A stretch of 55,154 bases of DNA, taken from assembly GCA_030682405.1 (NCBI GenBank), contig JAUXOF010000060.1:1-55154 (forward strand). Reading direction: 5' to 3'. Source of the DNA: Thermodesulfovibrionales bacterium (GTDB lineage Bacteria > Nitrospirota > Thermodesulfovibrionia > Thermodesulfovibrionales > JdFR-86). The notes below the pieces were generated by a model that saw only the letters and a program-made list of their open reading frames with translations, was not told the DNA's origin and made no database searches. This document shows, piece after piece, positions 36,062 to 47,001 of the stretch (the stretch's first letter is position 1; every line of letters starts with the position of its first letter). The translations under genes were made by a program, and so were the position numbers.

Positions 36062-37351
36062 TCATCCATGACCTGAGAGCGAGAAACGTTGAAAGTTCTC
36101 CTTATCAAGCTCGTTATCTATCTTCATTAAAGGCTCCGGCTCAAGATTAAAGAGAAAAGCTACGCCGAAAATATTCATTATAAAAGGCGTGCCCGGATTT
36201 AATATAAAATGAGTTCCTTCTATATGACCGCAGGGAGTGCATTGCTTGCTAATAAAAAGATTGTTTGGAAAAGAACGTTTGCCAAGAATGAAATCTCGTG
36301 CGGTATCGTATCTGCAATCTAACGCCATAGGCAGACCATTGCGTATGCAGATTATTCCTAGTGCAATTTTATAAAGAGACCGCCCCAGAAGCTTAGGGTC
36401 GAATTTCTTTCTGCCTTGCATAGATAATGTGCCTCTAACATGTTCACCGGTTTCTTCCATGTTGAGTCCAAACTTAGGATTATTCTGCTTGATTATTATT
36501 TCCCTTGGACTAATTTTCTCAATAGCCATGTTCTGATACCGTGCTGTCAGAAATTTACCCGTCTTAGGATTGTAAGGTAGAACCAATGTCCTTAAGAAAG
36601 ATATAATGTCGTGTTCTACTAACTGCTGGTCTAATTCTGAAAGGACACCATTGTTACAATTATCACATACTTGACCTGGCGGAAGGATTACTTCAGTATT
36701 TCCCAAAGACTCGGGATAAACATGTTCTTCAGATTTAAAGCTTCCAGTTTTAGTTAAGCAATATATGCACTGATGAGATTTGACATTGTTGGGCTCTGGA
36801 ATGTGCTTCGTTTTTTCAGCTTCTCTTATAATGTTGTATAAATACTCACATAACTTGTAGACATCAAAGCAGTATGAATAAAATGCATATATCATATATT
36901 GAGGAATTATAAGATATCCGTGAAGGTCTTTAATTCTATTAGCTTCAATTTCTTTCTCGTCAAAAAACTCACCCTTAGAGTAAATAAGGTAAAAGTCCAG
37001 TCCACGTAATCGTTCGCCAGTTTTCTTGAGCTCTAATAGTATTGGCCCCGTTTCTAACAATTGAACTTCTTTATCGAAAAGTTCCTTATCCGATGAAGGA
37101 ATGAAACCATTTTCGAGTAAGAGAGTAGCAATATCTTTATAATTCAATCTGCTTCCTGGATCAGCTAATGGTTTAATGACTGTAGCAAAACGTGCAATTT
37201 CGTGTTTCGGGGGAAGCCGCAAATTTATATTCGCGCCCTTATTAATTTCGAAATTGAAACTAAAGCCAATGTCTTTCTTGGGCATAGCTTCAACCGCACT
37301 TCTCACAAGATGAAATTGGTTCTTGAATTTTTTTAATTTATCCCAATCCAT
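36062..37351 (-). CDS. AT-rich hypothetical protein with an HNH-type zinc site
   Basis: The 429 aa protein carries an HNH_5-like module in its middle: Cys195 and Cys198 (CIYC), EHVYPESLGN with His210, then Cys229 and Cys232 (CDNCNNG). This is the form of HNH nucleases with two CxxC zinc knuckles. The first 190 and last 170 residues are not recognised. The gene is strongly AT-rich against its surroundings and is probably imported. It is driven by copy B of the promoter/leader element. A defence or selfish endonuclease role is plausible but unproven. Confidence 0.6.
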   Translation of the reverse strand: MDWDKLKKFKNQFHLVRSAVEAMPKKDIGFSFNFEINKGANINLRLPPKHEIARFATVIKPLADPGSRLNYKDIATLLLENGFIPSSDKELFDKEVQLLETGPILLELKKTGERLRGLDFYLIYSKGEFFDEKEIEANRIKDLHGYLIIPQYMIYAFYSYCFDVYKLCEYLYNIIREAEKTKHIPEPNNVKSHQCIYCLTKTGSFKSEEHVYPESLGNTEVILPPGQVCDNCNNGVLSELDQQLVEHDIISFLRTLVLPYNPKTGKFLTARYQNMAIEKISPREIIIKQNNPKFGLNMEETGEHVRGTLSMQGRKKFDPKLLGRSLYKIALGIICIRNGLPMALDCRYDTARDFILGKRSFPNNLFISKQCTPCGHIEGTHFILNPGTPFIMNIFGVAFLFNLEPEPLMKIDNELDKENFQRFSLSGHG

Positions 37352-44146: not shown

Positions 44147-44188
44147 CCTCCGGGGCGGGCATTGAATTTTACCCGGATAAGATACTAC

Positions 44189-44194
44189 TATATT
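44189..44194 (+). promoter_or_regulatory. -10 box of yggS, leaderless arrangement
   Basis: TATATT lies exactly 6 bases before a TTG at 44201 that is in frame with yggS. The -35 is weak. Confidence 0.4.
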
Positions 44195-44200
44195 AGTATT

Positions 44201-44899
44201 TTGGTTAAGGCTGGGCTTATCGAAAACATAAGCGGCATTTATAAAAGGCTCTCTCATGCCGCCATGCGCGCGGGCAGAAATCCCGGGGACGTCCTGCTCA
44301 TTGCGGTCTCAAAAGGGGTAAGCGTTGAACTCATGAGAGAGGCCGCCGAGGCAGGACTGAGGGTATTCGGGGAAAGCAGGGTGCAGGAGGCCGTTAAAAA
44401 AGCGGCGGAGCTTGAAACCGCATCCTCAGGCATAAGGTGGCATATGATAGGGCATCTACAGAAAAACAAGGCCGGGGCTGCGGTCGGGCTTTTCGAGCTT
44501 ATCCACTCGCTCGATTCCGTGGAGCTTGCCTCCCTCATAAACAGGCACGCTTCGGGCAAAGGGAAGGTGCAGAGGGTTTTGATGGAGGTAAACCTTTCGG
44601 GAGAGCGGAGCAAGCACGGCATAGGAAAAGATGAAATCGGAAGCCTTATTAAGGCAGCGGCTAAGATGGAAAACATCAGTGTCGAGGGGCTGATGACGAT
44701 TCCCCCTTATTCGGATGACCCGGAGGCCTCAAGGCCGTATTATAAGGAGCTTAAAGAACTGGCCGATGGATACGGCCTCAGAGAGCTTTCAATGGGCATG
44801 ACCGGCGACTTTGAGGTCGCTGTTGAAGAGGGCGCGACTATGGTAAGGGTGGGGACGGCGATTTTTGGGGAGAGAATAAAGGCAAATATTGGAGAATAA
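44201..44899 (+). CDS. yggS: PLP homeostasis protein (YggS family)
   Basis: The product of about 232 aa is a PLP-binding TIM-barrel protein with the lysine in LLIAVSKG, GESRVQEA, WHMIGHLQKNK and the SMGMTGDFEVAVEEGATMVRVG phosphate-binding end. It balances free PLP and amino acid pools. TTG 44201 is preferred because of the -10 box 6 bases upstream. A TTG at 44162 would lie in the promoter. In many bacteria yggS is directly followed by proC; here two AT-rich genes intervene. Confidence 0.9.
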   Translation: MVKAGLIENISGIYKRLSHAAMRAGRNPGDVLLIAVSKGVSVELMREAAEAGLRVFGESRVQEAVKKAAELETASSGIRWHMIGHLQKNKAGAAVGLFELIHSLDSVELASLINRHASGKGKVQRVLMEVNLSGERSKHGIGKDEIGSLIKAAAKMENISVEGLMTIPPYSDDPEASRPYYKELKELADGYGLRELSMGMTGDFEVAVEEGATMVRVGTAIFGERIKANIGE

Positions 44900-44906
44900 A
44901 AATTAA

Positions 44907-45425
44907 GTGCGTATTTTAACCGACCAAGAAATTGCAGCCTACATCTCCGAACCAAAGGTAGTGCCTAATAACTGGTACTCCGGACTTGGATTAAAAGACA
45001 AATCACAATATCAGCATAGAGAAAAAGAGCTTGAAATTGAGGGTCGGGAAAAAAATCTTTTCCGGGTCATCATTAGACAAAATAAACTCAATATATTGGA
45101 TTTTTCTATCATCCTTACTTTAAGGGAAAAAGACTCAAATGTTGAATATAACTTATTAAGGGTAAATGGGAAGCACCCTTCAAGGCATACAAATAAATGG
45201 GAAAAGGAAAATAAATTGCCCGGCCATACTTTCTGGCCTCATTTCCATATCCACAAGGCAACACAACGGTATCAGGAAAGCGGCTATAATATCGATGGCT
45301 ATGCCGAGGTAACTCCACACTATTCGGATTTTCATTCGGCGCTTAACCAATTCCTGTTAGAATGTAATTTCAAGAGAGAAGATGAGGGACAGTTCTCTTT
45401 ATTTAAAGGAGGTGAAACGCTATGA
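44907..45425 (+). CDS. AT-rich hypothetical protein, partner of the DUF1828 gene
   Basis: The 172 aa protein starts LTDQEIAAYI and has a conserved-looking H-x-H-x6-Y-Q segment (HFHIHKATQRYQ). It recalls small proteins of the DUF6978 kind, with low certainty. No catalytic motif is recognised. The GTG start is 7 bases after yggS and lacks a Shine-Dalgarno. The stop overlaps the DUF1828 ATG (ATGA) with a perfect AGGAGG upstream. The strong AT bias marks the pair as foreign. Confidence 0.55.
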   Translation: MRILTDQEIAAYISEPKVVPNNWYSGLGLKDKSQYQHREKELEIEGREKNLFRVIIRQNKLNILDFSIILTLREKDSNVEYNLLRVNGKHPSRHTNKWEKENKLPGHTFWPHFHIHKATQRYQESGYNIDGYAEVTPHYSDFHSALNQFLLECNFKREDEGQFSLFKGGETL

Positions 45426-46195
45426 ATATCGAGCACATAGAAAAAGATTTTAAGAAAAAAATATGTGACGAAATCACTATTGAGCAAGAAGGATTAAATA
45501 GGTTTATTGTATTTAACCCTTTTATGTTTGATGACGGGGACCATCTCGTGGTTTTGCTGAAAGGCGTGGAAGGAAAATGGCTTTTCACCGATGAAGGACA
45601 TACATTTATGCATGTGAGTTACGATGATATTGATATTGACAAGGGAACAAGAAAGAAGATTATCGACAATGTTCTTTTGAGTTATGGCATAAAAAATCAG
45701 GAAGGAGAACTAATAGCGGAAATACTGGACAATCACTTTGGCGACGCATTGTACAGCTATTTACAGGGGTTGATAAAAATAACTGATATTAATTACCTGA
45801 CAAGAGAACGCGTCAGATCAACTTTTATGGAAGATTTCAAAGCTTTCATCGAAGACAAAGTGCCTTCTGAAAGGCGCATCTTTAATTATTATGATAAGCA
45901 CCACGACCCCGATGGTAAATATATTGTTGATTTCAGAATCAACGGCATGAAACGCCCACTTCTCGTATTCGGTGTCCCAAGTGATGCTCAGTGTCGTGAC
46001 GCAACCATTACTTGTCTGCAATTTGAGAAATTCAATGAGCCGTTCAGGTCAATGGCCATATTTGAAGATCAGGAATCTATTAATCGCAAGGTCTTGGCAC
46101 GATTCAGTGATGTTTGCGACAAACAATTCTCTTCGCTGGCGACAAATAGGGACAGAATTGATAAGCATCTCCATGAAATAATGGAAGAAAAATAG
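45422..46195 (+). CDS. DUF1828-domain protein
   Basis: The 257 aa protein fits the DUF1828 N-terminal pattern (FNPFMFDDGDHLVVLLKG, WLFTDEGHTF) and a DUF1829-like C-terminal part after about residue 120. The family occurs in phage, plasmid and island genes and is not functionally assigned. The frame of the N-terminal beta-rich region and the partner gene suggests a two-component defence or toxin-antitoxin module. The gene is AT-rich and ends 23 bases before proC, within what is usually a contiguous yggS-proC operon. Confidence 0.7.
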   Translation: MNIEHIEKDFKKKICDEITIEQEGLNRFIVFNPFMFDDGDHLVVLLKGVEGKWLFTDEGHTFMHVSYDDIDIDKGTRKKIIDNVLLSYGIKNQEGELIAEILDNHFGDALYSYLQGLIKITDINYLTRERVRSTFMEDFKAFIEDKVPSERRIFNYYDKHHDPDGKYIVDFRINGMKRPLLVFGVPSDAQCRDATITCLQFEKFNEPFRSMAIFEDQESINRKVLARFSDVCDKQFSSLATNRDRIDKHLHEIMEEK

Positions 46196-46218: not shown

Positions 46219-47001
46219 ATGACCGGCTTTATAGGCGGGGGGAACATGGCGGAAGCCCTGATAAAAGGGATGGTCTCTCACGGCATGAGGGATATAATGG
46301 TATCCGAGCCGAGGGAGGAAAGGCGGGATTATCTTAAGAAAACTTACGGGGTAAAAACATCCGCAAGCAATCTTGATACGGTAAAGTCATGCAGGATAAT
46401 AATACTTGCCGTAAAGCCCCAGCAGATGGCCGCAGTGCTTGATGAGATAAAAGATTATGTCACTGAGGATAAGGCAGTCGTCTCCATAGCCGCGGGCATA
46501 ACCCTTTCTTTCCTTCAGTCAAGGCTTAGCACCAAAAAGATAGTGCGCGTCATGCCTAATGTGTGCGCCCTTGCAGGCGAGGGGATGTCCGTAATCTCGC
46601 TCTGTGAGTGTTTTTCAGACAAAGACATAGGTATTATAAGGGACATATTCATGTCCGTGGGGAAAGTCCTGACCCTGCCAGAAAGGCAGATAGATGCGGT
46701 TACGGCTCTTTCAGGGAGCGGCCCTGCTTTTATCGCCCTTTTTCTGGAGGCTATGATTGAGGCCGGTGTTAGGCTTGGACTCAGAGAGGATGACGCCTTT
46801 AGTCTTGCCTCCCAGACCCTTTTGGGGACCGCGGCTCTCATAGACGGCGGGATGCCGCCCCGGAGGCTGAGGGAGATGGTTACGTCCCCCGGCGGGACAA
46901 CCGCAGAGGGCTTGAAGGTGTTTAACGAAAAGGGGCTTGGGGCAATCGTGGCCGAGGCCATGGAAGCGGCGGAAAAAAGAGCAAGGGAACTGGCGAAATG
47001 A
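46219..47001 (+). CDS. proC: Pyrroline-5-carboxylate reductase
   Basis: The 260 aa enzyme makes proline from pyrroline-5-carboxylate. It has the NADPH motif GFIGGGNMAEALIKG, AVKPQ and the C-terminal signature DAVTALSGSGPAFIALFLEAM with VTSPGGTTAEGL. The gene is complete and in the normal order before yggT. Confidence 0.95.
   Translation: MTGFIGGGNMAEALIKGMVSHGMRDIMVSEPREERRDYLKKTYGVKTSASNLDTVKSCRIIILAVKPQQMAAVLDEIKDYVTEDKAVVSIAAGITLSFLQSRLSTKKIVRVMPNVCALAGEGMSVISLCECFSDKDIGIIRDIFMSVGKVLTLPERQIDAVTALSGSGPAFIALFLEAMIEAGVRLGLREDDAFSLASQTLLGTAALIDGGMPPRRLREMVTSPGGTTAEGLKVFNEKGLGAIVAEAMEAAEKRARELAK

Follow-up and report, generated by a model that had tools for sequence, protein, structure and literature searches.

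A mobile DUF6978/DUF1828-type gene pair between yggS and proC of a Thermodesulfovibrionales bacterium as a candidate toxin-first anti-phage module

The window analyzed here is the whole 55,154-nucleotide stretch of DNA from a Thermodesulfovibrionales bacterium, whose assembly comprises 2.03 Mb in 87 contigs. The open reading frames (ORFs) of the window place two genes, P1 (44907-45425) and P2 (45422-46195), on the plus strand in an ATGA overlap. The yggS stop codon ends at 44899, 7 bases ahead of P1, and P2 is followed after 23 bases by proC (46219). These coordinates, the overlap, and both gaps had been given in a first-pass annotation and were all confirmed from the ORFs. The AT-rich, foreign composition reported there was likewise borne out, with a GC content of 0.386 in P1 and 0.380 in P2 (38-39%) versus 0.522 in yggS and 0.529 in proC (52-53%). 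The features of the locus are as follows.

44162..44899, plus strand: yggS, left border; longest ORF, with a TTG start; its true start is possibly more internal
44907..45425, plus strand: P1, 172 aa, GTG start; divergent DUF6978/PDC-M24A-type; proposed effector (toxin)
45186..45272, plus strand: P1 residues 94-122, H94-x-N96 ... H114-x-H116 ... Y122; five residues conserved in 79/79 sequences
45406..45415, plus strand: Shine-Dalgarno site of P2 within the end of P1, AAGGAGGTGA, a 10-base match to the consensus
45422..46195, plus strand: P2, 257 aa; DUF1828/PDC-M24B-type; proposed antitoxin or regulator
45422..45799, plus strand: P2 N-terminal domain, residues 1-126; DUF1828, chaperone/YbjN-like predicted fold
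45809..46192, plus strand: P2 C-terminal domain, residues 130-257; PD-(D/E)xK-like predicted fold without E-x-K
46219..47001, plus strand: proC, right border; ORF with a homologue in 41/41 genomes searched

Against six relatives (L012 to L017), P1 has a dN of 0.16-0.21 and P2 one of 0.09-0.13. Because dN is low with dS saturated or nearly so, this sequence comparison indicates that both are real genes under purifying selection. An Rfam search of the window gave no match, and a promoter scan returned 13 sites versus 5.1 expected in a stretch that is AT-rich. Elsewhere in the window, an AT-rich pair on the minus strand (932-2694; 302 and 303 aa) lies beside a ParA-like gene; its second member appears methyltransferase-like by eye, and the pair is probably a restriction-modification system. 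An AT-rich 429-aa ORF, also on the minus strand (36062-37351), has a stretch that looks HNH-like by eye (CxxC...H...CDNCNN) and is a possible second foreign insertion.

The strong internal Shine-Dalgarno site described in the first-pass annotation is indeed present ahead of P2 (see above), while the ribosome site of P1 itself is GGAG with a GTG start. Among 55 genomic pairs, the longer Shine-Dalgarno match belonged to P2 in 36 and to P1 in 8, the P1 start codons being chosen by rule. Over all 72 pairs the match was longer for P2 in 38 and for P1 in 20 (Wilcoxon p 0.008), and the 17 viral pairs showed the reverse trend (P1 in 12 and P2 in 2, by subtraction). The median gap between the two genes of these pairs was -1.

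The proC neighborhood was read in 39 of 40 relatives; the exception was G028, in which proC is split over contig ends. Neither P1 nor P2 was present in any of the 39 neighborhoods. In 26 of these relatives yggS and proC lie within 100 bases of each other and in 7 they are more than 200 bases apart; in the remaining 6 the stretch read contained no recognized yggS. In four of five genomes of the same family, yggS and proC overlap by 4 bases; in the fifth (G002) they are separated by a PIN-domain gene and a second gene, of 70 aa. The other separated junctions hold DUF4258, DUF2283, and HARE-HTH genes (G015; we take DUF4258/DUF2283 to be a toxin-antitoxin pair), DUF2283 with a PDC-M14B-like protein and DUF1016/PDC-S02 (G036), RHH with a Type IIG enzyme (G027), a Type IIG enzyme (G009), an Lcl_C protein encoded in the opposite orientation (G032), or no obvious gene (G025). 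Toxin-antitoxin, restriction, or PADLOC-candidate genes thus occupy 5/7 separated junctions, that is, 5/39 relatives (L192, L196, L219, L220, and L221).

Eight P2 relatives share 79-86% identity with the window protein (L011 to L017 and L046). Three of them lie before proC (L011, L012, and L016), one follows yggS on a contig that ends before proC (L015), three precede a kdsC-like gene (L013, L014, and L046), and L017 lies elsewhere; these neighbors were named by eye, except for proC-type genes in the window's own family. The varied sites of this mobile cassette, together with its absence from the relatives, indicate that the yggS-proC junction is a recurrent landing place rather than a conserved home, and the junction is possibly a defense-gene hotspot. 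Within the literature searched, no paper treats yggS, proC, and "defense island" together.

The two families travel as a pair, with the P1-type gene directly before the P2-type gene in relatives generally. Across 395 genomes of the phylum, all 27 DUF6978 places (26 genomes; four places below the curated cutoff) adjoin a DUF1828 place on the same strand, as do 18/19 places matched by the P1 profile, the exception being a broken P1 (G344:C28). Conversely, 43/58 DUF1828 places have a P1-type match alongside; 10 of the 15 unpaired places match only weakly, and at least eight of these belong to a single genus (g14). Two of the unpaired places (L298 in G128 and L299 in G210) are weak matches in single genes of ∼225 aa beside gapA-like genes in one genus and are apparently resident. 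A DUF1828 match also occurs in the E. coli control genome. In named genomes, P2 relatives were found in 107 stretches; the best 80 of 107 come from Nitrospirae, Planctomycetes, Bacteroidetes, Chloroflexi-type bacteria, archaea, and others. Viral loci retrieved by P1 alone carried P2 downstream in 40/40 cases, several of them near-identical, and in Pseudomonas phage 5399 (L010) the pair sits directly after cI. A plasmid collection gave no match to P1 and five plasmids with DUF1828 stretches. P1 and P2 distances correlate at 0.78 over 72 loci, a value reached by 0 of 2,000 permutations. Thus, the foreign two-gene cassette of defense or toxin-antitoxin type proposed by the first-pass annotation is supported on both counts, as the pair is absent from the junction in 39/39 relatives and its families co-occur elsewhere.

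The surroundings of these loci give a hint of enrichment in defense islands. A set of 143 of the 147 next-neighbor genes of the 80 genomic loci (the four longest being left out for their size) matched 378 PADLOC models at E ≤ 1e-10, and 101 distal genes of the same loci matched 95, a comparison in which the models are redundant, the counts are of models and not of genes, and the distal genes are shorter (on average 243 versus about 346 residues) and may share the islands.

The sole profile match of P1 was phrog_27326 (E 9.7e-16); no Pfam, NCBIfam, or PADLOC model matched at E up to 1, including Pfam DUF6978 (PF22398), for which G000 was also without a match. Two homologues exceed the DUF6978 cutoff of 29.6 bits, namely that of L009 (viral contig, 42% identity; 30.4 bits) and that of L010 (phage 5399, 29% identity; 46.2 bits). 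The L010 protein also matches the PDC-M24A model (E 1.2e-8), and the L009 protein does so only at E 0.053. Alignment of the P1 family to 18 DUF6978-type proteins with hhalign gave 95.8% and E 7.7e-9; 18 of the 19 loci tried yielded a protein. Because these members were picked for having H-x-H, that motif is common to both sets partly by construction, and R85, H94, and N96 are shared without being so. Taken together, these comparisons indirectly support P1 as a divergent relative of DUF6978/PDC-M24A.

Among 78 of 82 nonredundant relatives plus the window sequence, S67, R85, G88, H94, N96, H114, H116, and Y122 are conserved in 79/79 and R57 and N87 in 78/79. The invariant polar residues resemble an enzyme-like set. 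The motif earlier given as H-x-H-x6-Y-Q proved to be H-x-H-x5-Y-Q (HIHKATQRYQ). The predicted structure of P1 is confident (mean pLDDT 91.4, pTM 0.84). Foldseek returned no PDB match at E ≤ 0.001, with low probabilities; the best VIA-align Z was 5.7 (Rad50), and the sequence profile found nothing in the PDB better than E 0.87. The one BFVD match was an uncharacterized siphovirus protein (A0A8S5NGZ0; E 7.3e-3, probability 1.00). With no confident match among solved structures, assignment to a known fold was dropped and a new fold is not claimed; no enzymatic activity can therefore be named.

P2 is assigned readily by its N-terminal part. It matches Pfam DUF1828 (PF08861; E 3.6e-23, 82.1 bits, curated cutoff 22), phrog_5059 (E 9.5e-33), and PADLOC PDC-M24B (E 2e-22 and 1.2e-13, over residues 3-145 only), with no NCBIfam match. 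The "DUF1828/1829-like" label it had received holds for DUF1828 and fails for DUF1829 (PF08862), which P2 does not match at E up to 1 but which canonical relatives in G039 and G054 do match. The predicted structure has a mean pLDDT of 90.3 and a pTM of 0.52, so the arrangement of its two domains is uncertain. No Foldseek match reached E ≤ 0.001; its candidates were aligned with VIA-align. Residues 11-126 aligned with Spa15 (Z 8.5, rmsd 3.0 over 100 residues), InvB (8.1), CesT (7.2), and YbjN (6.5), and residues 130-257 with Cdn1 (Z 9.4, rmsd 3.5 over 117 residues), VC1899 (8.8), and Can2 (8.7); PspGI scored Z 10.3 but at rmsd 6.5. These are middling scores for the predicted likenesses to chaperones and to PD-(D/E)xK proteins. 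The sequence profile of the C-terminus also gave a weak match to CRISPR-associated structures (8y75, 8y6z, and 8y7g; E 0.0016).

In an alignment of 90 of 91 P2 relatives plus the window sequence, D170 is present in 90/91 and D138 in 82/91 sequences. Residues 182-184 are V/I/L, F/Y, and A/G in nearly all of them, with no (D/E)-x-K there. P2 as an active PD-(D/E)xK nuclease is disfavored by this missing E-x-K on the third strand, although a displaced residue might still serve. The C-terminal domain thus resembles nucleases of the Can2/Cdn1 kind in predicted fold and differs from them in having neither E-x-K nor CARF and in an N-terminal domain that resembles secretion chaperones and YbjN.

Gene loss in this family is asymmetric. 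The best 80 of 107 genomic loci, many of them from metagenome-assembled genomes, were retrieved by P2 patterns; four had no room upstream, leaving 76 scored. Both genes were intact at 58/76, and 16/76 kept an intact P2 with P1 broken (n = 10) or absent (n = 6). P1 was absent and P2 broken at 2/76, and no locus (0/76) had an intact P1 with a broken P2. Damage to P1 takes the form of frame breaks (L020 and L046), in-frame stops (L082 and L089), and an internal deletion (L019). Since a search that begins with P2 favors intact P2, this asymmetry is suggestive and not proven. The phylum search, in which both families were sought separately, found six further places with a damaged P1 and an open P2 frame (G174, G200, G218, G219, G278, and G380; G278 and L046 are possibly one genome), and intact P1 with damaged P2 only at contig ends (G183 and G197). 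Both genes look damaged in G246:C173, and P2 fragments without P1 occur in G050 and G338. The opposite loss, an intact P1 with a broken P2, was found at 2/40 viral loci (L120 and L144), which speak against a strict toxin role of P1 unless they reflect sequencing or assembly faults.

P2-type genes also exchange partners. In G174 (L288 2685-4235, minus strand), a GmrSD-type gene directly precedes the DUF1828 gene; the end of its product shows a sub-cutoff match to the final 36 positions of DUF6978, and the arrangement looks like an effector replacement. Three further P2-type genes, none with a whole P1, follow a DUF4062 gene (G007), follow MNT and HEPN genes with DUF3037 behind (G084), or end a directly consecutive row HipA_2-DUF3037-DUF1828 (G267; L295 1204-3642). 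At L011 (3706-5989), two unrelated genes (417 and 347 aa) replace P1 directly upstream of a P2 relative that is 86% identical to the window protein. Neither product matched Pfam or PADLOC; the 347-aa protein has a D...E-C-K-K stretch that by eye is suggestive of a PD-(D/E)xK nuclease.

The pair, for which the first-pass annotation knew of no shown function, does carry a name, the PADLOC candidate PDC-M24 (A, DUF6978; B, DUF1828/DUF1829). The window shares with this candidate two adjacent genes in the same order and a P2 that matches PDC-M24B; the P1 homologue in L010 matches A, and the canonical pairs in G039 and G054 match both. It differs in that P1 has no PDC-M24A match and P2 no DUF1829. 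Because P1 is linked to the family by way of L009, L010, and hhalign, we classify the window pair, on sequence grounds, as a divergent relative of PDC-M24 and not a strict member. The literature searched included no paper that names PDC-M24. Two papers treat PADLOC candidates in general as uncharacterized, DUF6978 and DUF1828 are each named by one paper in tables only, and one further paper mentions DUF1828 (PMC7970244).

One of the closest known systems is DS-6/HipAD, described in the DefensePredictor paper as a phage-validated HipA-type kinase with a DUF3037-DUF1829 protein that is predicted to bind kinase and DNA (PMC13092281). The row in G267 resembles it with an added DUF1828 protein, and DUF1829 is the C-terminal region that canonical DUF1828 proteins also have. 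In contrast, the window has no kinase or DUF3037, P1 and P2 being flanked by yggS and proC, and the gene in first place is DUF6978-like. As DUF1829 is undetected in P2, it is family relatives that provide the link to DS-6.

The type II class of toxin-antitoxin systems includes modules in which the toxin gene comes first. P1 and P2 share with these two small, coupled, mobile genes, a stronger second ribosome site, and asymmetric loss; they differ in that no known toxin or antitoxin family is recognized in either. Antitoxins are usually smaller than P2 (257 aa).

That P1 and P2 form a defense or toxin-antitoxin module of some kind is very probable from the sequence evidence. The best reading, at a probability of about 0.5, is a mobile toxin-first, toxin-antitoxin-like anti-phage module with P1 as the effector and P2 as the antitoxin or regulator. 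Next in rank, and possible though tentative, is a two-component defense complex in which P2 acts as sensor or adaptor and P1 as effector, both being needed and neither toxic alone. Such a complex would account for the strong co-inheritance (correlation 0.78 over 72 loci), the translational coupling (median gap -1), the tolerance of P1 loss where P2 remains, and the two viral loci that lost P2 and kept P1. It has a precedent in DS-5, a two-component defense system for which it is reported that both components are needed and neither is toxic alone (PMC13092281). However, the retention of P2 where P1 is broken or absent and its association with other partners suit a keeper at least equally well. 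The polarity that the first-pass annotation proposed to test, with P2 as a toxin (here an active nuclease) and P1 relieving it as antitoxin, is improbable. The likeness of the P2 C-terminal domain to Cdn1 and Can2, the conserved D170 and D138, and the viral loci with a broken P2 would fit it, but the following strand has no E-x-K, P2 persists without an intact P1 at 16/76 genomic loci, and the invariant His/Arg/Asn set belongs to P1. The predicted structures and the patterns of gene loss and partner exchange suggest the opposite, a toxic P1 held by P2.

A role as a restriction-modification accessory, or as a prophage anti-restriction or immunity pair, acting on neighboring systems or superinfecting phages, is unlikely. 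In its favor, the next neighbors often include Type I or III restriction genes (of the 143 flanking genes, 6 are matched by PADLOC models for Type III methyltransferases and 5 by those for Type I specificity subunits), genes that appear by eye to encode specificity subunits directly precede P1 in L012, L014, and L016, and the pair follows cI in phage 5399. Yet no restriction gene adjoins the window copy or many of the others, such genes are commonplace in defense islands, and the comparison with distal genes is not clean. A resident housekeeping pair of the yggS-proC operon, as the shared strand, tight spacing, and purifying selection might suggest, is scarcely credible and was rejected on the absence from 39/39 proC neighborhoods and the foreign GC content; relatives of the pair also occur elsewhere in chromosomes and on viral contigs.

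For the toxin-first module, we infer the following scheme of activity, binding, inhibition, trigger, and protection. P1 would be an enzyme that harms the cell once released, a nuclease being the first guess, with an active site formed by R57, S67, R85, N87, H94, N96, H114, H116, and Y122. P2 would keep P1 inactive by means of its chaperone-like N-terminal domain, and its C-terminal domain, a catalytically dead nuclease fold, may sense nucleic acid or some signal from the phage. The strong ribosome site of P2, together with translational coupling, would maintain an excess of P2. Infection would then upset P2 and free P1, resulting in abortive infection.

More speculatively, P1 may represent a new toxin family with a previously unrecognized active site (R85, H94-x-N96, H114-x-H116, and Y122) and possibly a new fold, and DUF1828/DUF1829 may be a general, exchangeable antitoxin, a secretion-chaperone-like clamp joined to a dead nuclease sensor, that checks DUF6978, HipA kinases, HEPN/MNT, and GmrSD in bacteria, archaea, and phages. 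The yggS-proC junction is a spot at which to seek defense genes in this bacterial order. If the proposal is right, a database candidate would gain a hypothesis with named active-site residues and a predicted polarity. DUF1828/DUF1829 would be linked to several effector types, and a single control mechanism could explain several systems.
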